NCBI GenBank assembly: GCA_030428695.1
Contig: JAUIEM010000185.1
Coordinates: 1-18,824, forward strand
DNA length: 18,824 bases
Direction of reading: 5' to 3'
DNA from: a bacterium
Lineage (GTDB): Bacteria; Planctomycetota; J058; JAJDCP01
In this document: positions 48-16,418 of the stretch, one piece after another
Numbering within the stretch: position 1 is the stretch's first letter
How the letters are laid out: the number at the start of each line of letters is the position of its first letter
Translations under genes and position numbers: made by a program
Notes under the pieces: generated by a model
The model's input: only the letters and a program-made list of their open reading frames with translations
Told to the model about the DNA's origin: nothing
The model's database searches: none

Positions 48-296
48 TTAGGAACTTATGCGGAGGTCAGTATTCCCATCCACGAAAGGGTGATTCCGAG
101 TTATGTGATAAATATACGCGGCCGCTTGCTCAAGAAGATTTTCGTGGAAGAAAGCGTCGGAGCTTCCTGCTTGCGGCATCGCAATTGCCGACTCCAATAG
201 TCCAAGATCCCGCACACCTTCAGTGCCGCCGTAGAGTTCGAGTTGGTTCGCGTGTGCCCTGAGGACTTCACGAAGGTTAAGGAACTCTGGCTTCAT
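48..296 (-). pseudogene. doc: Truncated Doc/Fic-family (death-on-curing) toxin
   Basis: The 82-residue product begins MKPEFLNLREVLRAHANQ, the typical start of chromosomal Doc toxins. It keeps the Fic-fold helices with YGGTEGVRDLGLLESA and AAAYIYHITRN. It runs into the catalytic loop HPFVDGN, but the next residues should be K/R-R-x-G and a further 40-50 residues; instead the frame reads TDLRISS and stops. The stretch after GN does not resume Doc in another frame, so this looks like a recombination breakpoint near position 69 rather than a one-base slip. Doc of phage P1 transfers phosphate from nucleotides to EF-Tu using this loop; without its end and the C-terminal helices the protein should be inactive. 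It starts 6 bases after the antitoxin stop, so it is the second gene of a toxin-antitoxin operon. Family assignment is strong; inactivity is inferred. Confidence 0.85.
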
Positions 297-997: not shown

Positions 998-1993
<996 letters not shown>

Positions 1994-2097: not shown

Positions 2098-2793
2098 TTA
2101 TTTTCCGATCGGTGACTTCGCAGCCTTGCCCGGCTTGCGCGGGAAACGCTCGGGCGTCGGCTTGCGCTTGACCAGCCGCAGGATCGCCCGCGGAATCCCG
2201 TCCGCCAGCCGGTAGGCCGCCCGCCCCTGCGTCGCCCAGCCGAGGGTCTCGGCGGCCGGCAGGGCCTGCAGCAGCTCGTCGTCCGCGCGGCTGCCCTTCC
2301 ACGCGAGCAGCAGCCCGTTGAGCCGGGTCAGGGGCGCCGCGAGCTCGAGCAGGCTGGCGAGCGGGGCGAGGGCCCGCGCGCTCAGCTGGCCGTAGGCCTC
2401 GCGGTGCAGCTCTTTGCGGCCCAGGGACTCGGTGCGCTCGTTCAGCACGTTGACGCGGTCGAGCTCGAGAACCTCCGCCGTCTTGCGCAGGAAGCTCGCC
2501 TTGCGCTGGCTCGCCTCGACCAGGGTGACCGGCAGGAGAGGGATGCAGCAGGCGAGCACCAGACCGGGAAAGCCCGCGCCGGAGCCGAGGTCGAGCAGCG
2601 GTAGCGTCTGCAGGGCCTGCAAGCCCTCCAGCGAGTCCGCGATGTGGCGCTCGATCACCCGCTCGCGGTCGTGCCGCGAGACGAGGTTGTGCGGCGCCGC
2701 CCGTACCCGCTCGGCGTAGGCTTGGAGGCGTTCGGCGACGCCGGGCTCGAGGCTGTGTTGCTCGGCGAGGGCCGCCAGGGAAGGCTCAATCAT
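2098..2793 (-). CDS. rsmG: 16S rRNA (guanine527-N7)-methyltransferase RsmG (GidB)
   Basis: RsmG methylates N7 of G527 in the 530 loop of 16S rRNA with S-adenosylmethionine; loss gives low-level streptomycin resistance. The 231-residue product shows the family order: N-terminal helices, HNLVSRHDRERVIERHIADSL, then the SAM motif LLDLGSGAGFPGLVLA, the VTLVEASQRKASFLRKTAEVL strand-helix, and QLSARALAPLASLL. The start chosen (MIEPSLAALAEQ, ATG 2793) gives the usual length. It overlaps the end of the zinc-ribbon gene by eight bases (ATGATTGA), so translation is probably coupled. A longer frame to 2829 adds only 12 Pro/Arg-rich residues inside that gene. The lysine-rich C-terminal tail (KPGKAAKSPIGK) is a little extended. 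Unlike the usual gidA-gidB-parA setting, it follows two unrelated membrane proteins here. Confidence 0.95.
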   Translation of the reverse strand: MIEPSLAALAEQHSLEPGVAERLQAYAERVRAAPHNLVSRHDRERVIERHIADSLEGLQALQTLPLLDLGSGAGFPGLVLACCIPLLPVTLVEASQRKASFLRKTAEVLELDRVNVLNERTESLGRKELHREAYGQLSARALAPLASLLELAAPLTRLNGLLLAWKGSRADDELLQALPAAETLGWATQGRAAYRLADGIPRAILRLVKRKPTPERFPRKPGKAAKSPIGK

Positions 2794-3649
2794 GGGGCGC
2801 CAGGGTGTCAGCGGGCGGGGCGGTCCCACCCAGGGTGTCGGCGGGCGGCCGGAGCCACCCGCGTTCGGCGAGCTGCGTCAGGCCGCGCTCGACCGTCTGC
2901 TCGCAGCGCTCGATCCAGCCGCCGAGCGAGCCCTGCCGGGCGAAGCCGTCGGCGGGCAACGTCCCCGCGAGCAGGGCGCCCGCGAGCGCGAGTGGCAACA
3001 CGACGGCGATGATCAGGAGCACGCGCGGCCAGCGCCGGCTCCGGGGAAGCGGAGCGAACGCGGCGTCGCTCGACTCTTCGGGGGCGGACTCCTGCGGAAG
3101 GTCCTCACTCTCGGGCGCCGGCGTCGGCTCGGCGCGCGCGGCCTTGCGCTTCGAGGAGATCCCGCGCCGGGTCGGCGCCTTGCGCCGCGCGACCGCCTGC
3201 TTCGTGCGCCCGCTGGAGGGGGCCGGCGGGGGCTGCCGCTCTTCCTCCGACGACTCCTCGAGCTCGAGCTGCAGATCCTCGCCCGCCAGGTACTCGTCGA
3301 CCTGCGCCGAGCTCCCGTCGCCGGGATCGACCGGGCCCGACGCCAGGGCCTCGGTGCGGCCGTCGGGATGCAGGGTCTGCATCGTCTCGCAGCTCGGACA
3401 CTTGATCGTCTTCGCGGTCGCGACCCGTTTCCGCCGGAGCTGCCGCTTGCAGCCGATGCAGCCGAACTTCACGTCCTCGCCGAGGGCGCCCTGGCGCTTC
3501 ATCTCCAGCCCGGAGTCGGAGCCCGAGGCGACGACCGCCTTGCGGTTCTCGAAGCAGCGCGGACAGATGAACGCGAAGGTAGCATCGGCGCGGCGCGCCT
3601 CCTTCGCGGGGATCAGGGCTCCGCACACCTCGCAGTAGCGCAGCGCCAT
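2786..3649 (-). CDS. Double zinc-ribbon protein with a single transmembrane segment
   Basis: The 287-residue protein starts MALRYCEVCGALIPAKEA. It carries two CxxC-n-CxxC zinc ribbons: Cys6/9/29/32 and Cys64/67/84/87 (FGCIGCKR...KCPSCETM). A disordered acidic, Pro- and Lys/Arg-rich stretch follows (about 100-205), then one hydrophobic span (about 210-229, VLLIIAVVLPLALAGALLAG) and a C-terminal tail with PPADTL twice. Ribbons in the cytoplasm and tail outside would be the simplest topology. The start ATG overlaps the stop of the upstream membrane protein by one base (TGATG), so the two are coupled; a longer frame reaching 4276 is antisense-like Arg/Pro noise and is rejected. Function unknown. 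Zinc ribbons also dominate the GTPase protein of the divergent operon, which hints at a shared adaptor role; this is inference. Confidence 0.8.
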   Translation of the reverse strand: MALRYCEVCGALIPAKEARRADATFAFICPRCFENRKAVVASGSDSGLEMKRQGALGEDVKFGCIGCKRQLRRKRVATAKTIKCPSCETMQTLHPDGRTEALASGPVDPGDGSSAQVDEYLAGEDLQLELEESSEEERQPPPAPSSGRTKQAVARRKAPTRRGISSKRKAARAEPTPAPESEDLPQESAPEESSDAAFAPLPRSRRWPRVLLIIAVVLPLALAGALLAGTLPADGFARQGSLGGWIERCEQTVERGLTQLAERGWLRPPADTLGGTAPPADTLAPHD

Positions 3650-4134
3650 CAGCCCCCCAGTCCCAGCGCGAGGCTGGTGCCGAACAGGCCGAGCGCGAGG
3701 GCCTGGCACAGGCTGGCGGGGACGAGCAGGCGCGCGGAGCGCTGCTCCTGCAGCCAGGCCCAGAGCAGGCAGAGCAGCCCGGCGAGCGCCTCGCCGGCGC
3801 CGACGACATAGACCGGCAGCACCCAGGCCGCGAGGTCGCCGCGCTGCCACACGTACAGGAGCGCGATCCAGCTGAGGGCCGCGGCGACCGAGAGGGCGAG
3901 GCACAGCCAGTTGAACAGCCGGATCGGGGCGGCCCCGAACAGCCCACAGGCCGCGTGCAGATAGAGCAGCAGGAGCGCGCCGGCCAGGGGCAGCAGCGCC
4001 AGCACCGGACGCTGCAGGGGAGCGAGCAGCGGCTCTCGCCAGGCCCCGACCCACGCGCCGCTCGCGAAGAGGTAGAGGAGTCCGCAGCCGAGCACGAGCC
4101 CGGACAGGCTGAGCACACGCTTGAACACCGGCAC
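3649..4134 (-). CDS. Small multi-pass membrane protein, function unknown
   Basis: About 161 residues, with hydrophobic helices near VLSLSGLVLGCGLLYLFASG, PVLALLPLAGALLLLYLHAA, LFNWLCLALSVAAALSWIAL, VLPVYVVGAGEALAGLLCLL and LLVPASLCQALALGLFGTSL, that is five predicted membrane spans. I do not recognise the family. The start is uncertain: GTG at 4134 or GTG at 4128 both follow AGGAG on the - strand (4 or 10 bases away), while an ATG at 4233 would add a Pro/Arg-rich leader with no coding look. Its stop overlaps the start of the zinc-ribbon membrane protein, so it is the first gene of a three-gene operon ending in rsmG. It could form a membrane complex with its neighbour. Confidence 0.7.
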   Translation of the reverse strand: MPVFKRVLSLSGLVLGCGLLYLFASGAWVGAWREPLLAPLQRPVLALLPLAGALLLLYLHAACGLFGAAPIRLFNWLCLALSVAAALSWIALLYVWQRGDLAAWVLPVYVVGAGEALAGLLCLLWAWLQEQRSARLLVPASLCQALALGLFGTSLALGLGG

Positions 4135-4271
4135 GACTCTCCTCGGACCTCCCCGCTCGGCCCCCGGCGGGTGGCAAGCCGCGTACCGGCCGCGCGAGGC
4201 GCCGCGCCGGGGACACGGGATTCTCCGTCCCACACGACGAAACCGACGGCAGGGGACGCAAACGAACGCCT

Positions 4272-4301
4272 ATCATAGTAGAGCGCGCGGAAGAACGCCA
4301 A
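4272..4301 (-). promoter_or_regulatory. Sigma70-type promoter of the membrane protein-zinc ribbon-rsmG operon
   Basis: On the - strand TTGGCG (4296-4301) and TATGAT (4272-4277) are 18 bases apart. This is an AT-rich island in very GC-rich sequence, about 140 bases upstream of the first start codon. Identified by eye. Confidence 0.5.
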
Positions 4302-4474
4302 TGCTCCCGCCGACGCCCGCGAGCCCGGCCGCGGCGGGCACTTCCGGGGCGTGAAGGAGGCCCGCACGGGACGTCGCGGCGCGGCGCTGTTACACTGCAG
4401 AGGGGGTGGCCGCGCGACGCCGGAATCCCTCCGATCCACGGCTTCCCCGCGCGCCGTCGAGCTTCGGGAAGTCT

Positions 4475-4503
4475 TTGCAGTTTGCCGGGTTGCCTGCTAC
4501 GAT
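4475..4503 (+). promoter_or_regulatory. Sigma70-type promoter of the GTPase/coiled-coil operon
   Basis: TTGCAG (4475-4480) is separated by exactly 17 bases from TACGAT (4498-4503), giving a transcript start near 4510 and a leader of about 60 bases before ATG 4573. Its position rules against the in-frame start at 4351. Confidence 0.6.
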
Positions 4504-4572
4504 CGCAGCTCTCCCAGGGCGGGCGCGCCCCCTGGATGGTGCGACCGAGGGCACCCCCGCCGAGGCCGGTCC

Positions 4573-6189
4573 ATGGAGAAGCAGAACACCGCGGAGTTCC
4601 TCCCGCATCTGTTGCAGAGCTCGATCTGCTTCCCTCCCGGCATCTGCCTGCTCGGCAGCCACCTCCGTTACCTCGATGAGCGCGTGCTCGAGCTCAACCA
4701 GCGCAAGCATCTCAGCCTCGGCAACCTGCTCGACCAGACCCCGCCGCGCTGGGTGTACAGCGACTGGTTCCAGATCGGCGGGCGCATGGTCAGCAACGGC
4801 GAGTACCTGCAGTTCCTCCACGACCGCGAGCGCGATCCCCTGACGGGCAGTGAAGGCGAGCGCCTGTTCGACGGCCACGAGATGTGGCGCTACCTCTGGA
4901 CCGACCTGAAGTACGGCATCGAGGTCGTCAACGCCCAGGTGCAGCGGCCCGACGGCACGATCATGGTCACCGAGGAGAACTACCGCCGCATCGACAACTT
5001 CGTCGAAGCCTACCTCGAGTCGCTCAAGCTCGAGATCGACCGCCAGCTGATGGTGATCGAGGCGGACGGGGGCGAAGAGGAATCCGACCGCTTCCAGGTC
5101 CAGCGCCCCGAGACCGAGACCGGCGTGATCGCGGCCCGCAAAGACCGCAACGTGCACAAGCTCTTCCTCTACTTCAAGTACGCCCTGCGCGACTCGATCT
5201 GCAACCCCGAGCAGCAGGAAGAGAAGCTGTTCACCGACCGCGAGAAGTCGACCCTGAGCAGCTACCTGGCGAGCGAGAACCGCAACCAGGACATCCTCCG
5301 GGACATCGACCAGCTGTTGCTCAAGCTGCGCCGCATCTACGGCCACGTCGAGCGCAGCAACCCGAAGAGCTTCGTCGAGCCGATCACCTTCCTCGAGCGG
5401 GCCAAACGCCAGCTCCGCCGCCAGACCGAGGTGCTGACGCCGATCCCGCTGCACACCGTGCTCTACCCCCGCGGCTGGAACAGCTCGGCGGGCGAGGGCC
5501 AGGCGCGCGGCTTCGTCGGCCCGAACGTCCCCTGGCTGCAGCGCCCGGTCACCGGCGTCAGCCTGTACGAGGCCCTCGGCTTCTGCACCTGGCTGTCGAC
5601 CAAGATCGGCTGGGAGTACTCGGTCACGCTGCCGAACGAGGCGGAGTTCGAGCGCGCCGCCAGCTGGCCCCGCGACGTCGTCGACGAGCGGCCGGCCGAG
5701 GTGATGGTCGACCCGCGCATGAAGGACGTGTTCCCCTGGCAGCGCACCTCCGAGCACGACTTCAACTACTACTTCGGGCGCGAGGGCCAGGAGCTCGACA
5801 CCCTGTACAGCAACAAACGCCGCTACCAGCAGGTGTTGGAACAGACCGCGCGGGTCGTCTCGAACAACGAGAAGCTGTACATGCTGCTCGGCTACGGCTG
5901 GCAGTGGACGCTCGACCGCTTCCAGCAGAACGAGCGCAAGTACAACCGCTTCGAGGACATCGACTACCGCCGCTACACCGAGCGGAAGTACAAGGATGTC
6001 GACCGCACCGACCGTCCGCTCGAGGTCTTCCTGTACGAGGCGAACAAGAACCAGAAGAACTCCTACTTCGTCGCCCGCGGCGCGCCGGACATCATCGGCG
6101 GCCCCGGGCTGACCACCCGGCGCTTCGCGCTCTACCCGCTGCGCGGCTACCACAACGTCGGCTTCCGCTGGGTGATGAAGAAGAACTGA
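4573..6189 (+). CDS. SUMF1/FGE-fold protein split by a helical insertion, probably non-catalytic
   Basis: The 538-residue product shows the two halves of the formylglycine-generating-enzyme (SUMF1/EgtB/PvdO) fold. The N-terminal part has ICLLGSHLRYLDE and FQIGGRMVSNGEYLQFL, the usual "V-T-N-x-E-Y" position. The C-terminal part has PVTGVSLYEALGFCTWLS (from residue 325), LPNEAEFERAASWPRD (from 353), GYGWQWTLDRF and the family ending RRFALYPLRGYHNVGFRWVM. About 200 charged, mostly helical residues (roughly 100-300) lie between them, far more than in FGE. The Cys pair that binds copper in true FGEs is absent from the C-terminal half, so a binding or scaffold role is likelier than sulfatase activation. 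No signal peptide: cytoplasmic. It is the first gene after the promoter at 4475, 40 bases ahead of the GTPase gene. The start is set by the promoter and by GAGG at 4562-4565. Confidence 0.8.
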   Translation: MEKQNTAEFLPHLLQSSICFPPGICLLGSHLRYLDERVLELNQRKHLSLGNLLDQTPPRWVYSDWFQIGGRMVSNGEYLQFLHDRERDPLTGSEGERLFDGHEMWRYLWTDLKYGIEVVNAQVQRPDGTIMVTEENYRRIDNFVEAYLESLKLEIDRQLMVIEADGGEEESDRFQVQRPETETGVIAARKDRNVHKLFLYFKYALRDSICNPEQQEEKLFTDREKSTLSSYLASENRNQDILRDIDQLLLKLRRIYGHVERSNPKSFVEPITFLERAKRQLRRQTEVLTPIPLHTVLYPRGWNSSAGEGQARGFVGPNVPWLQRPVTGVSLYEALGFCTWLSTKIGWEYSVTLPNEAEFERAASWPRDVVDERPAEVMVDPRMKDVFPWQRTSEHDFNYYFGREGQELDTLYSNKRRYQQVLEQTARVVSNNEKLYMLLGYGWQWTLDRFQQNERKYNRFEDIDYRRYTERKYKDVDRTDRPLEVFLYEANKNQKNSYFVARGAPDIIGGPGLTTRRFALYPLRGYHNVGFRWVMKKN

Positions 6190-6229
6190 GAGCGGCCCGC
6201 TCCCCTGAGCCGGGGCCGCAAGGCGAACG

Positions 6230-9190
6230 ATGAGCCAGAGCAGCTGTTTTGTATGCCACTCACCGCTGACGCAGCAGTCGCGCCAGTTCGCGCGCTGCAC
6301 GAACGAGAGCTGCCCCGAGGGCACGCTGTTCGTTCACTGCGGCTACTGCAAGCAGTTCTCGGTGACGGTCGGCGCGGACAACAAGGGGCCGCTGATCTGC
6401 CGCAACCCGCGCTGCAAGATGCACGGCCTGCCGCGGACGGTCTGCCCGAGCTGCCAGAAGTACAGCCTGTCCGAGGTCGGCAGCGCGAAGATCTGCATCT
6501 CGCGCAGCTGCCCGAGCAACCAGTCGATCCTGCGCACCTGCCACTTCTGCAACAACGCCGCCTTCCTGCAGAGCCGTGAGACCAACTTCTGCACCAAGGG
6601 CGACTGCGAGTACCTGCTCGTGCGCATGGAGCGCTGCGGGGCCTGCGCGAAGATGACCCTCGACGTCGGCGCGAGCAAGTGCCGGAACCGCGACTGCAAG
6701 CGCTTCAACCACCTGGTCGAGACCTGCCCCACCTGCGGGCAGCTCAGCCAGGTCGACGGCATGTGCGAGAACGCCGACTGCACGAGCAACGCGGGAGGCA
6801 GCGGGCACTTCCAGGAGACCCTGATGGGGGACATCCTCGGTGAGCTGCGCGACGTGCTGCCGGCGATGGGCGGAGGAACCGACGAGCGCGCGCGCCCCCG
6901 GCCGATCAAGCCGCCGCCGGCCAACGACCTGACCGGCAGCTGGGAGCAGCCGGAGTGGGACGGCGGGCTCGGCACCGGGATGCCCCCGAAGCCGACGGCG
7001 CAACCCGCCGCTGCGGGCGCGCGGCCGAAGAAGAACCGGAAGGCGACGCTCAACGACTTCTCGCCCTTCGACATGCTGCCCGAGGCACCGCGCGGACCCG
7101 ACGGGGCGCCGCTCGACCTGTTCACCCAGGCGAAGCCGGGCAGCAGCGAGCCGGTCGAGACCGGGCGCACCGCCGACGTGATCAAGACGGTCGGGCCGAG
7201 CCTGTTCTCCGGACCGAAAGAGACCGACGCCGGCTTCCCGCGTTTCCCACAGAGCGAACCGAAGCCCGCGCCGCCGCCGGCCGACCTGTTCAAGGCTCCG
7301 GGCCCCGCGCCCGCGCCGGCTCCCGCGCTGTTCGGCCAGCCGGCGGCGCCGCCCCCCGCGCCGACGCCGGCGCCGACTCCCGCGCCGCTGCCGGCTCCCA
7401 CGGGGTCGAGCCTGTTCCCGCCGCGCAAGAAGCCGAGCATCGAGCCGCCGAGCAAGCCGGCTCCGCAGCTCGACCTGTTCGGCAGCAGCCGGCGGACGCG
7501 GCGCGCGCCGCGGCGCGGTCCGGCGCCGAAGCTGTTCGGACAGTCGAGCCAGCCGGGGGCCGACCGCTTCTCGCTCGACACCGACGAGAGCAAGGCGCTG
7601 CCGGCGGCTCGGGACACCGACGCGGTGTTCCCGGTGCCGGCGATCGGTCAGGAGCCGACCAACCCGAAGGAGGTCGGCTTCGCGGAAGCCTACGAGTTCG
7701 TGCTCAAGCACATCCTGACCGGCTCGGACGGCAAGACCTCGCCGCTGCTGCTGGTCATCGGCCTGTCCGGCGCCGGGAAGACGACCTTCCTGACCGTGCT
7801 CGGCGACATCCTCGCCTTCCGCAAGTCGAAGTACTACTTCCCCTGGGAGGGGCTCGAGGTGCGGCGCATCGACGTCGACGCGGTGCTGTCGCGCGGCTTC
7901 GAGTTCCGCCAGACCCCCGAGCCGGTGCGCAAGAAGCTGCGCGAGCAGTACAAGGGGCACGTCAAGGACCTGGTGTTCGAGTACAGCCAGGAGTACTTCA
8001 GCAAGTACCTCGGACGCGAGCACTGGGCGCCGCCGACCGCCAAGGGCGAGACCTACTTCCTCGCGACCGAGCTCGAGCACCGGCAGCGCAGCCTGGCGAA
8101 GATCGTCACCCTCGAGACCGCCGGCGAAGACTGGAAGTCGCTCCTGTACTCGCTGGCGGGCCGGCGCATGAGCGGTGCGGACGAGAAGCGCCTCAGCACC
8201 CTGCGCCAGCTGCTCAACACCGCCGAGGGCCTGATCGTCCTGCTCGATCCGGCGGACGACAAGACCGACGACATCTACCAGAACTTCTTCCTGATCCTGA
8301 AGGAAGCGGTCGGACCGCGGGCCCGCAACAAGGCGCGCGAGCTGATCCGCGAGCGCCTGCACGGCGGCGAGGAGCCGGCCGAGGTGCAGCGCCGCGCCGG
8401 GCCCCTCGACTTCCGCAACCTGCAGGGCAGCCTCAAGCAGCAGCTCGAAGACCAGCTGCGCAAGCAGCGCGAGAAGGAGGCCTTCCGCACCGAGCTGCGC
8501 ACCAAGATCCAGAACACCGCCCGGCGCCTCGAGCTGCGCGGCATCGAGGGGCTGCCGCGCGAGGACACCGAGTTCATCCAGCAGCTGAAGACGCTGTTCT
8601 ACCGCCTCGACCCGAAGAACGTCGAGCAGGCCGAGCGCTACCTCGAGGACCACAACTACAGCAAGGACGCGCTGATCAAGTTCAGCCGGCAGATGCTCTC
8701 GCGGGCGGAGAAGATCCTCGAGAAGCTCGTCGAGCTGCGCTTCGAGGGCTCCGGCGGCGGGCTCTCCGAGTCGCAGCTGACCGAGGAGGAGCAGCGGGTG
8801 CGCACGGCCTGGCAGGAGATCTGTCGCGAGCGCAAGCTCGGCGACAACCCGCGGGTCGACGTGCGCGCCGACAACCTCTACCACAACGAGGCGATCAGCG
8901 ACTTCCCCTGCCTGAAGAACGTCGCGATCGTCGTGACCAAGACCGACATGTACCCGATCGTCTACCCGCCCGAGCGCTATCCGGAGGTCAAGCTCCCGAA
9001 GTCGAAGCAGCACATCGGCCCGCTCGCGACCTACCTCAAGCTCCTCGACGGGGGCATCTGCTACTACAACTCCTCGGCCACCGGCTACTCGGTCACCCGC
9101 AACGGGCGCCCGCTGCCTGGCATGGAGAACACGCTCTGTCCGATCAACATCATCGAGCCGATCATGGACATGCTCGAGATGCCCGAATAG
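6230..9190 (+). CDS. Six-zinc-ribbon P-loop GTPase-like protein
   Basis: The 986-residue protein opens with six tandem zinc ribbons of form C-x2-C...C-x4-C: Cys6/9/23/28, 37/40/57/62, 72/75/89/94, 104/107/121/126, 136/139/151/156 and 166/169/179/184. Then comes a Pro/Ala-rich disordered linker (about 200-480) with recurring short LF-containing motifs (LDLF, SLFSG, DLFKA, ALFGQ, KLFGQ), possibly binding peptides. The NTPase domain has the P-loop GLSGAGKTT (511-519), a G3-like ETAGEDW (629-635) after a beta strand, LIVLLDPADD near 670, and a G4-like TKTD (903-906). This is the order expected of a TRAFAC-type GTPase with a long helical insertion (about 690-890) before G4. It resembles the "double-GTPase"-type proteins found beside GAP1 proteins, which fits the next gene. 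Cytoplasmic. Nucleotide specificity and the exact family are inferred. It lies 22 bases upstream of the GAP1-like gene. Confidence 0.8.
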   Translation: MSQSSCFVCHSPLTQQSRQFARCTNESCPEGTLFVHCGYCKQFSVTVGADNKGPLICRNPRCKMHGLPRTVCPSCQKYSLSEVGSAKICISRSCPSNQSILRTCHFCNNAAFLQSRETNFCTKGDCEYLLVRMERCGACAKMTLDVGASKCRNRDCKRFNHLVETCPTCGQLSQVDGMCENADCTSNAGGSGHFQETLMGDILGELRDVLPAMGGGTDERARPRPIKPPPANDLTGSWEQPEWDGGLGTGMPPKPTAQPAAAGARPKKNRKATLNDFSPFDMLPEAPRGPDGAPLDLFTQAKPGSSEPVETGRTADVIKTVGPSLFSGPKETDAGFPRFPQSEPKPAPPPADLFKAPGPAPAPAPALFGQPAAPPPAPTPAPTPAPLPAPTGSSLFPPRKKPSIEPPSKPAPQLDLFGSSRRTRRAPRRGPAPKLFGQSSQPGADRFSLDTDESKALPAARDTDAVFPVPAIGQEPTNPKEVGFAEAYEFVLKHILTGSDGKTSPLLLVIGLSGAGKTTFLTVLGDILAFRKSKYYFPWEGLEVRRIDVDAVLSRGFEFRQTPEPVRKKLREQYKGHVKDLVFEYSQEYFSKYLGREHWAPPTAKGETYFLATELEHRQRSLAKIVTLETAGEDWKSLLYSLAGRRMSGADEKRLSTLRQLLNTAEGLIVLLDPADDKTDDIYQNFFLILKEAVGPRARNKARELIRERLHGGEEPAEVQRRAGPLDFRNLQGSLKQQLEDQLRKQREKEAFRTELRTKIQNTARRLELRGIEGLPREDTEFIQQLKTLFYRLDPKNVEQAERYLEDHNYSKDALIKFSRQMLSRAEKILEKLVELRFEGSGGGLSESQLTEEEQRVRTAWQEICRERKLGDNPRVDVRADNLYHNEAISDFPCLKNVAIVVTKTDMYPIVYPPERYPEVKLPKSKQHIGPLATYLKLLDGGICYYNSSATGYSVTRNGRPLPGMENTLCPINIIEPIMDMLEMPE

Positions 9191-9200
9191 CCCATCCCCC

Positions 9201-9206
9201 GGGGAG
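9201..9206 (+). promoter_or_regulatory. Ribosome binding site deciding the GAP1-like start
   Basis: GGGGAG lies six bases before the ATG at 9213. An in-frame TTG at 9210 is only three bases away from it, so the ATG is preferred. Confidence 0.55.
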
Positions 9207-9212
9207 CCCTTG

Positions 9213-10451
9213 ATGGTCAGACTGGAATTGAAACACCACGTCTACAGCTCCATCGAAGGCTACCAGAGCATCTTCGCCTCGAAGGGTCTGCCCCAGGAGG
9301 TGATCGAGCGCGTCGAGGAGTGCTCGCGCCTGCTCTACCCCCGCCTGTACGGACCCGGCACGCGCAGCATGTTCCCGGTCTGCGGCTACTTCTGCCACAG
9401 CCGCGTGTTCCGCTACGGCCTCGACCACGTCGGCCGGCCGCGCACCTGCGTCCACAACATCCTCGTCGACCTCAGCCTGCAGGACAGCTCCCTCGACCCC
9501 TACGGGCTCGGGCCGCAGGCCTTCCTGTCGCCGGACGTCCCCGACCAGGACATCGGCTACGAGCTCGCCGAGGCGTACAACTGGCCGACGACCAGGGAGA
9601 CGATGAGCGAGCGCGTCCAGTACCTGCTCGGCAACGCCGAGGCGGCGCGCTGCTTCCCGGCCGTGCTCAGCCTGCTGCAGTTCGGCCAGCCCTGGGTGCT
9701 GCGGGCGCGCTCCCAGGAGGGCTTCGATCTGGTCAGCAGCGTCGGGGCCTTCCTGCCGCCGGTGTTGCAGCGGCGGCTCGCGATCGTCTCCGGCACCAAG
9801 CTCGCCAACGCCCAGGTGACCGTGCTGTCCCCTTCCACCGACCTCGAGAGCATAGACGCCGAGTGGACCCTCGACTATCCGGCCGATCCCGCGCGCTTGC
9901 CGGGCTGCAGCGAGTACGCCGCGCTGATCGCGGAGTACCTGTTCAACCGCCAGGACCTCGCGACCCTGCACCTGATCCACGACTTCCTCGCGACCTACGA
10001 GGAATCCGAGCGCGACCAGTACGCGGCCCTCGACCGCTTCGCGAAGGTGTTCCGGGCGACCGAGCGCTACATCGACCGCGAGTACGGCGGGCTGCAGATC
10101 GACGCCCACAGCCTCGAGACCTTCATCAGCGCGGTGCCCGAGCTGCACCTGGCCGGCTTCTCGCGGCTGGCCGAGAGCGTGCTCGACTGGTGCTTCGACC
10201 ACCTGAACCAGTCGAAGGATCTGCGGAAGATCGCCGAGGGCCTGAAGCTCTTGCGCAAGAGCCTCGAGGCCGAGCCGCTCAGCTCGCGGGACGTCAGCTC
10301 CTTGCGGAGGATGATCCAGCCGCGCATCTACGAGCTGATGGCGCCGAAGAAGACGATCCGCATCCGCGGGGTCGAGGACTTGACAAACAAATCCAATATC
10401 GCTTCTGATCTGAAGGCGATCGTGGCACTTCTAGCGTCTGCAGGGAGTTAG
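9213..10451 (+). CDS. GTPase-associated protein 1 (GAP1)-like protein
   Basis: The 412-residue product starts MVRLELKHHVYSSIEGYQSI and continues with FASKGLPQEV, a YGPGTRSMFPVCGYFCHSRVF region and GRPRTCVHNILVDLSLQ. This order (Y-x-S-x-x-G-Y-Q near the start, then G-R-P...H-x-L-x) matches what I recall of the N-terminal domain of bacterial GAP1 proteins, which accompany GTPases in predicted conflict and signalling systems. Residues 230-412 are mostly helical (for example EYAALIAEYLFNRQDLATLH) and carry no motif I recognise. No signal peptide or membrane span. The gene sits 22 bases after the GTPase gene and 7 before the first coiled-coil gene, so all are co-transcribed. A regulator or partner of the GTPase is the likely role. 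The family call rests on pattern memory, not on a search. Confidence 0.55.
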   Translation: MVRLELKHHVYSSIEGYQSIFASKGLPQEVIERVEECSRLLYPRLYGPGTRSMFPVCGYFCHSRVFRYGLDHVGRPRTCVHNILVDLSLQDSSLDPYGLGPQAFLSPDVPDQDIGYELAEAYNWPTTRETMSERVQYLLGNAEAARCFPAVLSLLQFGQPWVLRARSQEGFDLVSSVGAFLPPVLQRRLAIVSGTKLANAQVTVLSPSTDLESIDAEWTLDYPADPARLPGCSEYAALIAEYLFNRQDLATLHLIHDFLATYEESERDQYAALDRFAKVFRATERYIDREYGGLQIDAHSLETFISAVPELHLAGFSRLAESVLDWCFDHLNQSKDLRKIAEGLKLLRKSLEAEPLSSRDVSSLRRMIQPRIYELMAPKKTIRIRGVEDLTNKSNIASDLKAIVALLASAGS

Positions 10452-10458
10452 GTCAGCT

Positions 10459-12843
10459 ATGTCCGACGACAAAGTGGAAGGGGCGATCCGCAGGCTGAAG
10501 GACGACCTCGGTCGCACGATGCTGCCGACGGACCTGAAGAAGAAGATGCGGGTCGTCAAGGCGAAGGACATCCGCCGGCTGATCGAGGATCTGCTCAAGG
10601 ACTACGAAGGCCTCGAGCACAAGGACCTGATCCTCAAGCTGACCGAGCAGGAGGTCCGCGCCTCGAACTTCGACCGTCAAAAGGAAAAGTACAAGGACCA
10701 GATCGCCGCCCTGAAGGACGACCTCGACCACGAGCGCAGCCGCCACCGGCAGACCATCGAAGCGCTCGAGATGAAGTCCCGCGACCTCGGCCGGCTCAAG
10801 AACCTCGAGCAGGAGCTCGACGCGCTGCGCCTGCAGCTCGACAAGCAGAACCGGGCGGTGCGCGACAAAGACCGCGAGCTCGAGGCCCTGCGCCACCAGT
10901 CCCTGGCGATCCAGCAGGACCGCTCCCAGGAGACCGGCCGCTACCGGCACCAGATCGAAGAGCTCAAGGGGGCGCTGGCCGAGCGCGAGCGCGACGCCCT
11001 GAGCCGGCTCGAGGAGCTCAAGGCGCGGCTCGCCGCCCTCGGCGAGGAGAAGGCGCGCTTCGAGCAGGCGGTCGCCGCCCGCGACGACGCCCTCGCCCAG
11101 CGCGACAGGCTGCTCGAGGAGGCGCAGGCCGCGATCGCCGAGCGCGACGCGAAGCTCGAGCAAGTGCTCGCCCAGGTCAAGTCCGACCACCAGCGCTTCG
11201 CGGAGATCAGCGGCAAGGGCAACGCCCAGGTGCGCGAGCAGGCCGAGCAGATCAGCGCCCTGAAGACCGCGCGCCAGGCCCTGGAAGAGGAGCTGACCCA
11301 GGCCCGCAAGCAGCTCGAGGCGCTCGAGCAACAGCGCAGCCTCGAGCGCGAAGAGCTCGAGGCCGCGCTCGCCGAGCTGCAGAAGCAGCTGCAGGCCTCG
11401 CAGGCCGAGGCCCAGGCGCAGGCCGACAAGATCGCCGAGCTGATCGCCCAGACCGAGGAGATGGTCAAGGGCGCCGAGGCGCGCTTCCATGAGTCGTCGA
11501 GCGAGGCCTCGAAGCTGCAGGCCGAGCTCCAGGCCCGCAACGACGAGCTCGAGGCCGCACGCAAGCGCGCCGCCGAGCTCGAGGCGAAGCTGGCGGCGAG
11601 TGAGGAGGAAGCGGAGAAGCGGGCCGCGGCGATCGCCGCCCTCGAGAGCTCCGCCCAGGAAGCCCAGGCGAAGTCCGACGACGCCCAGCGCACGCTGGAG
11701 GAAGAGCTCAGCGCGGTCAAGAGCCGCCTCGCCGAACAGGAGGAGCGCGCCGCGACGGCCGAGGCCGAGCTCGAGGCGAAGAACTCCCGCCTCGGCGAGG
11801 TCGAGCAGGCCCTCGAGGAGCTCAAGGCCGAGCTGGAGAAGGAGCGCCGCGAGGCCGAGGAGGCGGAAGAGGCGGCGAAGGCCTCGAGCGCGACCGCTCT
11901 CGAGGAGGCGACGGCGGCCCACGCCAAGGCCCTCGAGGAGGCGCGGGAAGCGCACGAGCAGAGCCTGGTCGAGCTGCGCGCCGCCCACGACGAGGCGCTC
12001 GCCAGCCTGCGCTCCGAGCACGAGGCGGCCCTGGAGGCCGAGCGCGAGGCGGCCGAGCAGCGGGCGCAGGAGCACGCCGAGGAGCTCGAGCGGCTGAACG
12101 CCGAGCTCGCCGCGGCCCGCGAGGAGACCGAGGCGGCCGAGCAGCGGCTGGTCGAGGCGCGGGAAGAGGACCGCGCGCGCATCAGCGAGCTCGAGGCGAG
12201 CCTGAAGACTTCCCAGGAAGAGGCCGAGACGCGGGCGAGCCGCATCGAAACCCTCGAGAACCAGCTCCTCGCCCTCGAGCAGGCCAAGCGAGCGGTCGAG
12301 GAAGAGCTCGGCGCCGAGCTGCGGGCCGTGCGCGCCGAGTTCGCGGACTTCAAGGAGAAGGCGGGCCAGGCCGTCGAGCGGGTCGCCGAGCTCGAGGCGG
12401 AGATCGAGCGGCTGACGAGAGACTACGAAGAGCAGCTCGCCCAGCTGCGCAAGTCGGTGCGGGCCCTGCAGGTCGAGCTCAAGGGCGCGTACCTGTACGA
12501 GGATCCCGACCTCAAGGCGGCGAAGAACGACGCGAAGACGCTGACGAAGGCGGTGACCGCGGTCGGGCGCAAGCTGAAGACGCGGATCGAGGGCGACCCC
12601 GCGAAGAAGGCCCAGTTCGACGCGCTCAAGGAGCTGTCCGAGGAGACCAAGGGCTTCGCGAGCGCCCTGGCCGGCAACGCGAAACGGGCCGACGAGTTGA
12701 TCGCGCTGATGGGACAGCGCAAGATGTCCCTGGAGGCCTTTGTCGAGATCCAGACCCTGGCCAACTGGACCGAGCGCATCGGCCAGGAAGTGAAGAACCT
12801 GAACACGGCCTTCGACATCGTGCAGACGAGTCTGAAGGAATAG
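10459..12843 (+). CDS. Long coiled-coil protein 1 with paralogous terminal domains
   Basis: The 794-residue protein has a short N-terminal helical domain (about 30-70, KDIRRLIEDLLKDYEGL then KDLILKLTEQE). A very long Glu/Ala/Arg/Leu-rich heptad region follows (about 70-660), then a C-terminal helical domain starting ELKGAYLYEDPDL (673-685) and ending KNLNTAFDIVQTSLKE. Both end domains have counterparts in the next gene product, so the two arose by duplication. No signal peptide, membrane span or enzyme motif. The rod would be tens of nanometres long, and together with its paralogue it probably forms a filament or scaffold for the GTPase/GAP1 pair. Generic similarity to SMC, myosin or motility coiled coils is expected from composition alone and carries no functional weight. 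It starts 7 bases after the GAP1-like gene. Confidence 0.85.
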   Translation: MSDDKVEGAIRRLKDDLGRTMLPTDLKKKMRVVKAKDIRRLIEDLLKDYEGLEHKDLILKLTEQEVRASNFDRQKEKYKDQIAALKDDLDHERSRHRQTIEALEMKSRDLGRLKNLEQELDALRLQLDKQNRAVRDKDRELEALRHQSLAIQQDRSQETGRYRHQIEELKGALAERERDALSRLEELKARLAALGEEKARFEQAVAARDDALAQRDRLLEEAQAAIAERDAKLEQVLAQVKSDHQRFAEISGKGNAQVREQAEQISALKTARQALEEELTQARKQLEALEQQRSLEREELEAALAELQKQLQASQAEAQAQADKIAELIAQTEEMVKGAEARFHESSSEASKLQAELQARNDELEAARKRAAELEAKLAASEEEAEKRAAAIAALESSAQEAQAKSDDAQRTLEEELSAVKSRLAEQEERAATAEAELEAKNSRLGEVEQALEELKAELEKERREAEEAEEAAKASSATALEEATAAHAKALEEAREAHEQSLVELRAAHDEALASLRSEHEAALEAEREAAEQRAQEHAEELERLNAELAAAREETEAAEQRLVEAREEDRARISELEASLKTSQEEAETRASRIETLENQLLALEQAKRAVEEELGAELRAVRAEFADFKEKAGQAVERVAELEAEIERLTRDYEEQLAQLRKSVRALQVELKGAYLYEDPDLKAAKNDAKTLTKAVTAVGRKLKTRIEGDPAKKAQFDALKELSEETKGFASALAGNAKRADELIALMGQRKMSLEAFVEIQTLANWTERIGQEVKNLNTAFDIVQTSLKE

Positions 12844-12861
12844 TCGACGCGGCGAGCTGAG

Positions 12862-12867
12862 AAGGAG
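12862..12867 (+). promoter_or_regulatory. Ribosome binding site of coiled-coil gene 2
   Basis: AAGGAG lies five bases before the ATG at 12873, the strongest RBS within the operon. Confidence 0.7.
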
Positions 12868-12872
12868 CCTCC

Positions 12873-15335
12873 ATGGCGGATCAGAAACGCGACCTCAAGT
12901 CCTTGATCAATCAGCAGCTGCAGACCAAGGAGGTGTCGGGCAAGCGCGCGGTCATCTCCCGGCAGGGCATCCGCAAGATCATCGACGCGCTGCTCGAGAC
13001 CTACGGGGCCCTCGATAAGAAGGACCTCATCGCGAAGATGACCGAGATGGAGCTCGCCTCGCAGAACGCGAAGAACAAGGCGGCCTCCCTCAAGGAGCAG
13101 CTGCTCCAGGCGATGAAGATCCAGGAGGCGCAGCAGGCCGAGCTCGAGCGGCTCAAGGGCGAGCTGGAGGGCAAGGACGGGCAGCTCGCCGAGCTGCAGG
13201 CCGCCCTGGCCGCCAAGGACCAGGAGCTCGAAGAGCTGCGCCGCCAGCTCGCCGAGCAGGCCGAGCAGATGCAACGCGCCCTCGAGCAGAACGCCGCCGA
13301 GCTGCAGAACCAGATGGCCGCCGACGCCGCCGGCCGCGACCAGCAGCTCGCCTCCGCCCAGGCCGAGGCCCAGGCGGCGCTCGCCGCCAAGGACCAGGAG
13401 CTCGCCGCCCTGCGCGAGGAGTACGAGCGCCGGCTCGCCGAGATGGAGCAGCGCCTCGCCGCCGGCGACCAGGGCATGCAGCAGGCCCTGGCCGAGAAAG
13501 ACCGGCAGCTGCAGGCCCGCGAGGCCGAGCTCCAGGCGATGATCGCCGACCTCCAGCACCAGCTGCAGCAGCTCGCCGCCCAGCACGAGGCCGAGCGTCA
13601 GCGCTGGGCCGCGGAGATGGAGCAGTACAAGGGCCAGACGGTGATGTTCCTGGACAACGAGAAGCAGCGCATGATCCAGGAGCTGAAGAACGGGGTCAAC
13701 CGCGCCCAGGAGGACGCCGACGGACGCTGGCAGCAGCGCTGCGACGAGCTCGCCCAGCTCGCCCGCACCGCCGAGGCCCGCGAGCACGCGCTGAAGAAGC
13801 GCATCGCCGAGCTCGAGAAGCTGCTCGGCGACAAGGACGCCGAGAAGGGCGAGCTCGCGCGGCAGATCGACAGCCTGAACGGCAAGCTCGGCGCCCACGG
13901 GCTCAAGCGCAGCGAGGCGATCGACCGCATCCACGAGCTCGAGGAGCAGCTCCGGCAGCTGCGTGACGAGCTCGCCCGCAAGGAGAAGCTGCTCGGCGAC
14001 CGCATCCAGTACCTGACCACCGAGCTGAAGTACGCCGAGCTGATCGAGGAGCCAGAGCTCGCCAGCCTGCAGGACAACTGCGAGAAGGTGTACGCCGAGA
14101 TCGCCTCGCTGGTCGCCGGCCGCCACGAGGACGAGCTGCCCGAGAATCTGCGCCACCTGCAGCGCGAGGCCGACTGGCTGGACAAGCGGACGCGCGAGGC
14201 GCTGCACGACTACCCGGTGCTGCTCAACGCGATGAACGAGCGCAAGGGCACCATCGAGGTGGTCAGCCGGCTCGGGCGCGTCGCGGCCCTCGGCGATCCC
14301 TACGAGAAGCTGCGCCAGAACCTGCTGCGTCTGACGACGGCCGGCAAGTCGCTGCCCGAAGACTCCCCGGACTACCTGCTCGCCAAGCCGAAACCCCGGC
14401 CCCAGGCTGCGGCCGCCGCCGAGCCGGCGATCGCGACCAACGAGCCGCCGCCGGTGACCGGCTCCTTCCTCAGCCCGACGCCCTCGGCGCTGATGCCCGC
14501 CTCGATGCAGGCGGAAGTCGCCGCCGCTCGGGCCGAGGGCCAGGCGCTCCCGCCGCCGGCGAAGGCCCAGGACGGTGTGCTGGCCGCACCCTCCGGGCCG
14601 CTGCCGGGGCCGCCGCTGGGCGGCGCTCCGGCTCCGGCTGCCCCGGCTCCGTCGGCAGCGCCTTCGCCGGCCCCAGCCGCTCCGACCCCTCCGGCCGCGG
14701 CGGCGCCGGCCGCGCCGGCTCCGGGTCAGCCCTCGGCGCCGCCCGCCGGCAGTGGCTACGCGCCGCACGGCTCCCAGCCGCATCCGGGCTACCCGCCCCA
14801 GGGCTACGCCCCGCATCCGGGCTACCCGCCCCAGGGCCAGCCGCCGCAGGGCTACGCCCCGCAGACCGGCTACGCCCCCCACGGCTACGCGCCGCCACCA
14901 GGCCAGGCTTCCGGCTACGCCCCCCAGGGCTACGCGCCGCCTCCGGGAAGCTACCGCGCACCCGGCCAGCCGGGCGCGGCCCCGCCCCCCGGCAGCTACC
15001 GCGCGCCGGCGGGGGCGCCTCCTCCCGGCTCCTACGTCGCGCCGCCGAGCGCCGCGCCGGCCCCCTCCGCCGGCGCCCCCGCGCCCGGAGCGATGCAGCC
15101 CGCGCCGCCGGTCCCCGCGCCCGACGGGATCGCGCCGGCCGGCTCCTTCCTCGCCCCGCCCGCGCGGCCGCTGCCGCCACCGGGCCTCGGGGCGCCGCCT
15201 GTCGAGGCCCGGCTGACCGATCAGCCCCCGCCGGACGACTCGAAGACCGTGATCCAGAGCTCGCCGGTGTTCGACGCCTCCGACGGCACCAAGCGCCTCG
15301 GCGAGGACGAGCTGGCCGCGCTCGGCGAGGACTGA
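12873..15335 (+). CDS. Coiled-coil protein 2 with a long Pro/Ala/Tyr-rich tail
   Basis: Of 820 residues, the first part mirrors coiled-coil protein 1. It has an N-terminal domain (about 30-75, RQGIRKIIDALLETYGAL then KKDLIAKMTEMELA), a Glu/Gln/Ala heptad rod (about 75-380), and a C-terminal helical domain starting TELKYAELIEEPEL (383-396) and running to about 500. It then adds a disordered tail of about 315 residues rich in Pro and Ala. The tail contains Tyr repeats of the type GYAPQ, GYAPH and PGYPPQ (about 628-706), then PPGSYRAP/PPGSYVAP copies. It ends acidic: DDSKTVIQSSPVF then KRLGEDELAALGED. Tyr/Pro-rich low-complexity tails of this kind often mediate phase separation or surface adhesion, and the Thr-containing end could be a phosphorylation or FHA-docking peptide; both are inference. 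Cytoplasmic as far as visible. It is followed after 5 bases by the NTF2-like gene. Confidence 0.85.
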   Translation: MADQKRDLKSLINQQLQTKEVSGKRAVISRQGIRKIIDALLETYGALDKKDLIAKMTEMELASQNAKNKAASLKEQLLQAMKIQEAQQAELERLKGELEGKDGQLAELQAALAAKDQELEELRRQLAEQAEQMQRALEQNAAELQNQMAADAAGRDQQLASAQAEAQAALAAKDQELAALREEYERRLAEMEQRLAAGDQGMQQALAEKDRQLQAREAELQAMIADLQHQLQQLAAQHEAERQRWAAEMEQYKGQTVMFLDNEKQRMIQELKNGVNRAQEDADGRWQQRCDELAQLARTAEAREHALKKRIAELEKLLGDKDAEKGELARQIDSLNGKLGAHGLKRSEAIDRIHELEEQLRQLRDELARKEKLLGDRIQYLTTELKYAELIEEPELASLQDNCEKVYAEIASLVAGRHEDELPENLRHLQREADWLDKRTREALHDYPVLLNAMNERKGTIEVVSRLGRVAALGDPYEKLRQNLLRLTTAGKSLPEDSPDYLLAKPKPRPQAAAAAEPAIATNEPPPVTGSFLSPTPSALMPASMQAEVAAARAEGQALPPPAKAQDGVLAAPSGPLPGPPLGGAPAPAAPAPSAAPSPAPAAPTPPAAAAPAAPAPGQPSAPPAGSGYAPHGSQPHPGYPPQGYAPHPGYPPQGQPPQGYAPQTGYAPHGYAPPPGQASGYAPQGYAPPPGSYRAPGQPGAAPPPGSYRAPAGAPPPGSYVAPPSAAPAPSAGAPAPGAMQPAPPVPAPDGIAPAGSFLAPPARPLPPPGLGAPPVEARLTDQPPPDDSKTVIQSSPVFDASDGTKRLGEDELAALGED

Positions 15336-15340
15336 GCGGC

Positions 15341-15745
15341 GTGAGCGATCACCGTCCGATCCTGCTCGCCAACCGCGCCTTCTACGTCGCCTTCGGGAGC
15401 GCGGACTTCGCGGCGATGGACGCGCTCTGGGCGCAGCGCTCGCCGGTCAGCTGTGTGCACCCCGGCTGGGGCGCGCTGTTCGGGCGCGAGCAGGTGATGC
15501 GCAGCTGGAAGGCGATCCTCGGCAATGCGCGGCCCACCGACATCGTCTTCTCCAACCCCGCGGTGCAGCGGCTCGAGGACATCGCCCTCGTACTCTGCAC
15601 CGAGCGCGTGTTCGCAAGCGAGCTGTGCGCGACCAACACCTTCGTGCTCGAGGACGGGGCGTGGAAGATGGTGCATCACCACGCCAGCCCGGTGACGACC
15701 TCCGAGCCGCGGCACATCGTCACGATGCCGGTGGGGTTGAACTGA
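15341..15745 (+). CDS. NTF2/SnoaL-like small protein
   Basis: The 134-residue product (GTG start, five bases after the previous stop) has the SnoaL/NTF2-like pattern. This comprises an N-terminal helix ending ANRAFYVAFGSADFAAMDALW, then SPVSCVHPGWGALFGREQVMRSWKAIL, a strand run, and a C-terminal NTFVLEDGAWKMVHHHASPV. Related small proteins ("nuclear transport factor 2 family", DUF4440) often stand alone and bind small hydrophobic ligands or act as accessory subunits; substrates are usually unknown. Length is typical. The tight spacing makes it the sixth gene of the operon, though it may simply ride along. A repeat-rich gap follows. Confidence 0.8.
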   Translation: MSDHRPILLANRAFYVAFGSADFAAMDALWAQRSPVSCVHPGWGALFGREQVMRSWKAILGNARPTDIVFSNPAVQRLEDIALVLCTERVFASELCATNTFVLEDGAWKMVHHHASPVTTSEPRHIVTMPVGLN

Positions 15746-15767
15746 CGGGGCTGCCCCTGTCTGGTTT

Positions 15768-15802
15768 CCATCGGGATCGGGATCGGAGTCGGGATCGGAA
15801 CG
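15768..15802. repeat. Hexamer array of type ATCGGG/ATCGGA
   Basis: A run of imperfect copies of ATCGGG, ATCGGG, ATCGGA, GTCGGG and ATCGGA. The same motif family recurs near 15886-15926, 16334-16361 and 16419-16445. Confidence 0.75.
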
Positions 15803-15827
15803 ACCTCACCATGGCCGCTCCTGGACG
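15794..15827 (+). repeat. 34-nt direct repeat, copy 1
   Basis: This unit begins ATCGGAACGACC and ends CGCTCCTGGACG. It is identical to the stretch at 15920-15953, 126 bases further on. Both copies are preceded by the same kind of GGRATC hexamer array, so the duplicated unit is longer but imperfect. Confidence 0.85.
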
Positions 15828-15919
15828 GCTGACTTCCGACCTCTGATTCCCCGTCCTTCCGCTCCCAGTGTTGCGCGCATCGGAATGGGATCGGGATTGG
15901 AAGCGGAGTCGGAGGCGGA

Positions 15920-15953
15920 ATCGGAACGACCTCACCATGGCCGCTCCTGGACG
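15920..15953 (+). repeat. 34-nt direct repeat, copy 2
   Basis: Identical to 15794-15827. The preceding array here is more degenerate (ATCGGA, ATGGGA, TCGGGA and GCGGAG-type units). Confidence 0.85.
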
Positions 15954-16028
15954 CATGACTCCATCCCGGAGGGCGGCGTCGGCGGAAGAACTCCCTCTCT
16001 TCCTTCCCTCTTCCTTCCCTTCCCTCTT

Positions 16029-16057
16029 CTTGGCGTCTTGGCTCCTTGGCGTCTTGG
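16029..16057. repeat. Two copies of CTTGGCGTCTTGG
   Basis: The 13-mer occurs at 16029-16041 and 16045-16057, within the polypyrimidine-rich tract. A "gcc-aag-acg" repeat of this style, like the unit at 16243, is something I recall from intergenic regions of several distant bacterial genomes; that recollection is unverified. Confidence 0.6.
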
Positions 16058-16074
16058 CGATTGGTCTTCTTCCC

Positions 16075-16179
16075 TTCTTCCCTCTTCCCTTCTTCCCTCT
16101 TCCCTTCTTCCCTCTTCCCTTCTTCCCTCTTCCCTTCTTCCCTCTTCCCTTCTTCCCTCTTCCCTTCTTCCCTCTTCCC
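16075..16179 (+). repeat. Minisatellite: seven perfect copies of a 15-bp polypyrimidine unit
   Basis: The unit TTCTTCCCTCTTCCC is repeated seven times without a mismatch, flanked by degenerate C/T-only sequence from about 15986 to 16213. The strand asymmetry (all C/T on +, all G/A on -) could favour triplex DNA. Because the unit is a multiple of three, the flanking frames stay open, which explains the spurious repetitive ORFs. Confidence 0.95.
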
Positions 16180-16242
16180 TTCTTCCCCCTCCTCCCTCTT
16201 CTTCCCCCTCTTACGACCCGCATCCGCCGGCAGAGGCCCGCT

Positions 16243-16276
16243 CCGCGCCTCTGCGCCTCCGCGCCTCTGCGTTAAA
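16243..16276. repeat. GCGCCTCTGCGCCTCC-type interspersed repeat
   Basis: Repeated CGCCTC/CGCCTCTG units ending in GCGTTAAAA. On the - strand it begins TTTTAACGCAGAGGC. A similar sequence is familiar to me from intergenic regions of unrelated genomes, but I could not check it. Confidence 0.55.
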
Positions 16277-16333
16277 ATCCCCTTTGCGAGCGGAGCGGCT
16301 CGTGCGGTCAGGACCATTCCGACCGCTGTTCCC

Positions 16334-16361
16334 ATCGGAATCGGAATCGGAATCGGAATCG
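16334..16361. repeat. Hexamer array (ATCGGA)n
   Basis: ATCGGA is repeated four times perfectly, followed by ATCG. Confidence 0.85.
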
Positions 16362-16418
16362 AACGAACCAGTCGAAGACCCAGCGCATGTGTGCGGCTCT
16401 CTTGCGGTCGTTTCCGAG

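Follow-up and report, generated by a model that had tools for sequence, protein, structure and literature searches.

What would a bacterium use a GTPase for that carries an array of zinc ribbons, is preceded by a SUMF1-fold protein, and is followed by a putative regulator and two long coiled coils? The question is raised by six genes on the forward strand at positions 4573-15745 of planctomycete contig JAUIEM010000185.1, the window being the whole stretch of 18,824 nucleotides that was analysed. In order, the genes encode a formylglycine-generating enzyme (FGE)/SUMF1-fold protein (P0001), a zinc-ribbon-array GTPase (P0002), a GAP1-like protein (P0003), two rod proteins (P0004 and P0005) and a SnoaL_3/NTF2-like protein (P0006). 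The system is real and conserved. The answer proposed here, to which we give a probability of about 0.55, is that the six genes make up a divergent, planctomycete form of the GAP1-N2-type DO-GTPase conflict systems, working as the switch set out below. The strongest lead, and what is new, is the reading of GAP1 as a predicted longin-DENN protein with a conserved arginine. GAP1 was named solely from its association with the GTPase; with a predicted longin-DENN fold and a conserved arginine at the finger position, it becomes a regulator that can be tested throughout the DO-GTPase class. Such a reading would put a DENN-like GTPase regulator in bacteria, and it bears on the origin of the eukaryotic regulators of membrane-traffic and nutrient-sensing GTPases.

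Homology of the GAP1-like protein to GAP1-N2

Relatives were sought among 5.8 billion protein sequences, of which the best 7,996 or 7,997 word-sharing candidates were scored. P0003 (9213..10451, + strand) found one close relative at 73% identity and the GAP1 alignment five more, while the GTPase core found seven at 31-37%. When genome contigs were scanned with the GTPase alignment, nine loci (L001-L009) came up, of which seven are recorded as Planctomycetota and one as Candidatus Kuenenia stuttgartiensis. A 246-genome sample of the phylum returned the same nine genomes and one more (G025, locus L027); since the sample includes the nine already known, it yields no prevalence figure.

Is P0003 then a GAP1 protein at all? 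On its own it reaches only 0.057 with the GAP1-N2 profile (13.9 bits against a cut-off of 24), but four of eight family members give matches with E values of 1 or less, the best at 2.9e-5, and one of the eight also matches GAP1-M (4e-4). When the genomes of the nine relatives were searched with the GAP1-N2 profile, four gave a match at E 0.01 or better, two of these over the cut-off, and five were missed. The reverse comparison used a canonical set of 14 planctomycete GAP1-N2 loci; they come from a search of 294 genomes, 17 of which gave 21 matches between them. A hidden Markov model (HMM) of the present family, built without canonical members, retrieved 11 proteins in 10 of these 14 loci (E 3.6e-6 to 0.0084); it gave no GAP1 match in L051, L060, L061 or L063, and in L064 it matched a second GAP1-like protein and missed the canonical one. 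The gene for this second protein (L064 11545-14793, - strand) lies beside another P-loop protein, near the canonical GAP1-N2 pair. Finally, over 226 columns hhalign aligned the family with nine canonical GAP1-N2 sequences, eight of which the family HMM had already retrieved, at 97% (E 9e-11). Through the profile matches of the relatives, the family HMM and the profile-profile comparison, we regard the homology of the P0003 family to GAP1-N2 as established. A first-pass annotation of this DNA, made from the letters alone, had named beforehand the GAP1 and GTPase relations and a conserved gene order as the points on which its proposal could fail, and the first of these holds.

Predicted fold and a conserved arginine

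The AF2 model of P0003 (predicted local distance difference test score 84) has a longin-like N-terminal domain, an alpha/beta middle and a helical C-terminal part. Its best Foldseek match, at 3.2e-4, is a chain of the C9orf72:SMCR8:WDR41-ARF1 complex, and the predicted fold thus resembles that of the longin-DENN GTPase regulators. A sequence-profile search of the PDB, with E values up to 1 allowed, found no longin or DENN protein, and a viral structure library gave no match to the model at E 0.001 or better. TagF (PDB 9t0n), which has a role in type VI secretion, also resembles the model in fold, with 10-14% identity, and for this reason may be another bacterial longin-DENN-like protein.

Within the model, residues 72-76 (numbered with TTG 9210 as residue 1) link strands 60-71 and 77-87, which are strands 4 and 5 if 3-13 counts as one strand; the loop is taken from the secondary structure of the model and not from a superposition. 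The alignments place a candidate arginine finger, R76 (codon 9435-9437, + strand), in this loop. D72, H73, R76 and R78 are invariant in 12 of 12 aligned family sequences. The three held-out members, from L003, L004 and L009, all keep D72 and R76, the L003 protein being without the histidine and that of L009 having lysine at R78, such that R76 is present in all 15 members examined. All 15 canonical GAP1-N2 proteins from the 14 loci likewise have arginine at this place of the motif. Nine of these rows come from alignment, five from a pattern, and one was missed by the pattern and then read from an alignment; as the search patterns behind these five and the three held-out members themselves held the arginine, those rows show only that a motif with arginine exists.

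In the available text of a 2026 preprint (PMC12803157), candidate DENN GTPase-activating proteins (GAPs) are defined by an arginine finger between longin strands 4 and 5, and in that of PMC8213707 C9orf72:SMCR8 is an ARF GAP whose finger is Arg147 of SMCR8. On the predicted structure, R76 would lie in the very loop where DENN-type GAPs carry this finger, and we propose that GAP1 is a literal GTPase-activating protein. Could it be a guanine-nucleotide exchange factor (GEF) instead, or a passive platform, as are the DENN GEFs and the scaffold longins? This is less likely, as the best fold match belongs to an ARF GAP complex and the conserved arginine sits, on the strand count used here, where the preprint places the mark of DENN GAPs.

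A wider claim is made more tentatively, at somewhat less than an even chance: that the GAP1 proteins of DO-GTPase systems are longin-DENN arginine-finger GAPs, counterparts of FLCN, SMCR8 and Avl9, their target here being a YcjX/Arf-like GTPase with zinc ribbons, which in turn controls how the rods assemble. If true, longin, DENN and d-DENN would have their equivalents in GAP1-N, GAP1-M and GAP1-C; to our knowledge this module is known only from eukaryotes. The words longin, DENN, roadblock and MglB are not used in Kaur et al. 2020 (eLife, PMC7159879), and no proposal of a DENN-type GAP1 was recognised from titles and abstracts among the matches listed in the open-licence literature. As far as the available part of Zhang et al. 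2012 (PMC3521125) goes, longins are derived there from prokaryotic roadblock GAPs, and eukaryote-specific GAPs and GEFs are mentioned.

The zinc-ribbon GTPase

P0002 (986 residues; 6230..9190, + strand) has six zinc ribbons, which a proline-rich linker joins to a P-loop core. The array (6245..6784, + strand) has CxxC at residues 6, 37, 72, 104, 136 and 166, and with six CxxxxC pairs these make up the 24 cysteines of residues 1-482. Among 16 aligned members nine have six or more CxxC motifs, five have four or five, and two have none or one. The core, delimited from alignments (7676..9187, + strand), contains G1 as GLSGAGKT (7760-7783), a G3-like ETAGE (8114-8128) and G4 as TKTD (8936-8947), and all 16 members are invariant at G511, G516, K517, E629, G632, E633, T903 and D906. 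The Walker B glutamates E629 and E633 of ETxGE are therefore kept throughout, and D, A, G and E of the DxAGE motif are found in 13 of 13 canonical neighbours.

Which GTPase family is this? The DO-GTPase2 profile gives P0002 itself 0.39, below the cut-off, and finds 13 of the 16 members, P0002 included, when E values up to 1 are admitted, the lowest being 1.4e-6; when members were scanned singly, one of ten passed the cut-off. Profile-profile alignment of the family with DO-GTPase2 is confined to the P-loop. Membership of the DO-GTPase2 family is likely on these comparisons, though short of proof, and the predicted model gives the core a YcjX/Arf-like GTPase fold. The GTPase relation suggested by the first reading is upheld by the model and by the DO-GTPase2 matches of the relatives. 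The fold match is the YcjX stress GTPase (PDB 6nz4), at only 17% identity, and YcjX is absent from the PDB sequence-profile matches of the GTPase at E up to 0.1; YcjX is not known to have a zinc-ribbon array or a GAP1 partner. Genome G007, the host of L007, encodes in addition a distinct DO-GTPase2-type protein of 1108 residues (L015 5619-8945, - strand; PF19993 1.7e-9), on a contig other than that of the L007 operon.

A conserved core of three genes

Neighbouring genes of the related loci were identified by running profile HMMs over translations in all six frames. An FGE gene stands directly upstream of the GTPase in eight of ten loci (L002-L008 and L027), L001 having no room for one and L009 being without it. 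A GAP1-like gene stands directly downstream in nine of ten, L027 being the exception, so that GTPase and GAP1 adjoin in the window and in those nine loci; both neighbours occur together in seven. The conserved gene order thus holds, and the conserved core consists of the FGE-fold protein, the zinc-ribbon GTPase and the GAP1-like protein.

Beyond the core the company varies. Twenty chosen neighbours were scanned, and among these HSP70 lies upstream in L003 and L008, that is in at least two of ten loci, accompanied in L003 by a GrpE-like gene below cut-off and in L008 by a vWA gene. Downstream in L008 are also a kinase and an NHL propeller, and in place of a rod L007 carries a TPR protein, one stretch of which looks coil-like. 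In the canonical locus L063 a coiled coil, FGE (1.1e-39), DO-GTPase2 (6.8e-15) and GAP1-N2 (1.8e-17) follow in a row, the last three in the order of the window.

The rod proteins

Downstream of GAP1 there are two coiled-coil genes each in the window, L002 and L003 and one each in L004 and L008, such that the rod family occurs in the window and four of ten related loci. Rod protein 1 (P0004, 794 residues; 10459..12843, + strand) and rod protein 2 (P0005, 820 residues; 12873..15335, + strand) share an N-terminal domain, at about residues 15-61 of the former (10501-10641, + strand) and 10-56 of the latter (12900-13040, + strand). The domain was recognised with leave-one-out HMMs. With N-terminal segments of 70-82 residues each held-out rod ranked above all other non-training entries in a set of 2,113 open reading frames (ORFs), at E 1.2e-12 to 3.5e-4, the next best entry having 0.41 or worse. 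With 47 residues eight of eight rods again came first; E was 0.0018 or lower for seven of them and no better than 0.87 for the long L002 rod. P0004 was recovered at E 1.9e-6 (70 residues) and 0.0018 (47), and P0005 at 1.1e-6 (longer segment) and 0.0015 (47). The position of the segments was set by eye around a motif, the paralogue of the same locus stayed in the training set, and three of the eight rods (two in L003, one in L004) had been found by earlier HMMs. The view that the two coiled coils are paralogous is borne out through this domain.

The rod N-terminal profile has no match at E 0.05 in the 14 canonical GAP1-N2 loci, and we have met the family only beside this GTPase-GAP1 switch. A common C-terminal rod domain was considered and dropped: it was recovered in six of eight leave-one-out runs, with P0004 and the long L002 rod missed. 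An intermediate-filament or crescentin identity of the rods was rejected too, as the scores lie far below the cut-offs, P0005 reaching 20.1 of 100 bits for Rod_CreS and 9.6 of 40 for Filament, and P0004 giving no match. By composition P0005 has a Pro/Ala/Gly/Tyr-rich tail from about residue 501 (14373-15332, + strand); the Tyr/Pro-rich tail of the first description is therefore present on this protein, but it is not seen in the six other rods. DNA tandem repeats at 14777-14940 encode part of its Gly-Tyr-Pro-rich sequence.

Do the rods belong to the system, or are they and the SnoaL gene passengers beside a conserved trio, the six genes being only loosely associated? Rods were not found in L005, L006, L007 and L027, and no relative of P0006 appears at E up to 1 among the called ORFs of L001-L009, where ORF calling is incomplete. 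Set against this, rods follow GAP1 in five loci including the window, with their common N-terminal domain, and gaps of just 7 and 29 bases precede the rod genes here. A passenger status for them is accordingly quite improbable.

The FGE-fold and SnoaL_3 proteins

P0001 (538 residues; 4573..6189, + strand) matches Pfam FGE-sulfatase over the cut-off (1.3e-11) at residues 323-462 (5539-5958). Formylglycine-generating enzyme needs active-site cysteines. Across the five aligned members of the P0001 family there are zero columns with cysteine in all; an active enzyme was rejected on this ground, and the FGE-fold domain is for the same reason probably a non-catalytic binding domain. P0006 (15341..15745, + strand) matches Pfam SnoaL_3 over the cut-off (1.6e-26), starts 5 bases after the rod protein 2 gene and is probably accessory. 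Of the identities first given to the genes, the SUMF1 and NTF2-like ones stand directly, while those of GTPase and GAP1, below cut-off in the window, are supported via the relatives.

Defence or structure

Gene order, GAP1-N2 homology, the predicted GTPase fold and the rod family, all computed, can be brought together in a proposed switch. The FGE-fold domain and the zinc-ribbon array would sense a ligand or invader, upon which the YcjX/Arf-like GTPase would stay GTP-bound. In this form it may recruit or organise the rods through their shared N-terminal domain, giving a scaffold or barrier. GAP1, with the arginine of its predicted beta4-beta5 loop, would then stimulate hydrolysis and reset the switch. 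Both the defence role and the assembly of the rods are inferred.

A phage or mobile origin was considered and rejected. No relatives were found in viral contigs (queries P0003, P0002, A1 and A3), in plasmids (query P0003) or in phages (query P0002); a PHROGs search with four of the six window proteins gave a single match, of the P0001 FGE region to phrog_18508 (4.2e-6). Assignment to a PADLOC defence system was also rejected for want of a clear match, the matches obtained being to P0002 near the P-loop (0.03-0.04), once to P0003 (0.041) and otherwise to the coiled coils of P0004 and P0005.

Might the same genes then have a structural role, GTPase and GAP1 controlling a rod-based intracellular scaffold for shape, envelope or a compartment, with no immune function? 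The lack of viral and phage relatives and of a clear PADLOC match fits this, as does a rod length that varies widely (ORFs of 244-1101 residues) while the N-terminal domain is kept, and a reference title (PMC11237479) speaks of YcjX, the fold match of the GTPase, as a stress protein. The system is, however, rare in the sample, with one genome beyond the nine known among 246, its accessory genes differ between loci (HSP70, GrpE-like, vWA, kinase, TPR), and homology to predicted conflict systems fits an accessory system better. A purely structural role is thus less likely, and the conflict-system variant remains the preferred reading.

Operon layout and flanking genes

The six ORFs are separated by 40, 19, 7, 29 and 5 bases. 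The second gap is 22 if the GAP1-like gene starts at ATG 9213 and not at TTG 9210, a choice supported by P0008, the relative 73% identical. The six same-strand genes and gaps of 40, 7, 29 and 5 given at first reading are thereby kept, and its 22 applies from the ATG only. Its single promoter ahead of the genes found no support: a sigma-70 consensus scan of 4200-16400, whose scope covers no other promoter type, returned two sites, both on the - strand, and none on the + strand.

The - strand flanks carry rsmG, whose product is at most 44% identical to its matches in 70 of 294 sampled genomes, and an O-antigen-ligase-type gene. Between the latter and the operon lies a perfect tandem array of eight 15-base units (16068-16187). 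Upstream of the operon, on the - strand, overlapping ORFs at 2786-4276 include a stretch in which CxxC pairs precede a membrane-like segment, and 3649-4233 is a membrane-like ORF of its own. An ORF at 998-1777 (- strand) has a thioredoxin-like start, judged by eye, and sub-cut-off TPR matches at its end. A short ORF at 48-296 (- strand) has a near-terminal HPFVDGNT, then a few residues; this resembles the Fic/Doc motif.

Comparison with known systems

How new is the system? In the available text of Kaur et al. 2020, the GTPases of GAP1-N2 DO-GTPase systems carry one zinc ribbon or two at the N-terminus, FGS (SUMF1-type) domains occur in some systems of planctomycetes, and other systems, mainly from actinobacteria and firmicutes, have HSP70 and GrpE; no mention of zinc-ribbon arrays or of a dedicated rod family was found in that text. 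The HSP70 and GrpE-like neighbours and the FGE row of L063 recall these themes by analogy. The kind of system, put forward as undescribed by the first-pass annotation, had therefore been described already, and its novelty narrows to the zinc-ribbon arrays and the dedicated rods. A profile search of the six window proteins gave no FNIII match, and tubulin is likewise not among the six genes; because the linked FNIII protein is absent from them, the operon is classed as a variant and not as a plain member.

Beside the longin-DENN regulators (SMCR8-C9orf72, FLCN-FNIP2, DENND1, DENND10 and Avl9), which have a GTPase partner and an arginine in the beta4-beta5 loop, the GAP1-like family has a GTPase as its gene neighbour and, in the predicted loop, the same residue; unlike them it is bacterial, and its partner is a zinc-ribbon GTPase. 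With the GAP1-N2 DO-GTPase systems the present family shares a zinc-ribbon GTPase followed by GAP1, the FGS/SUMF1-type component of planctomycetes, and HSP70, GrpE-like, vWA or kinase neighbours in some related loci. It departs from them in having typically six ribbons instead of one or two, in a GTPase core that hardly matches DO-GTPase2 outside the P-loop, in a divergent FGE protein, and in the addition of rods with a shared N-terminal domain.
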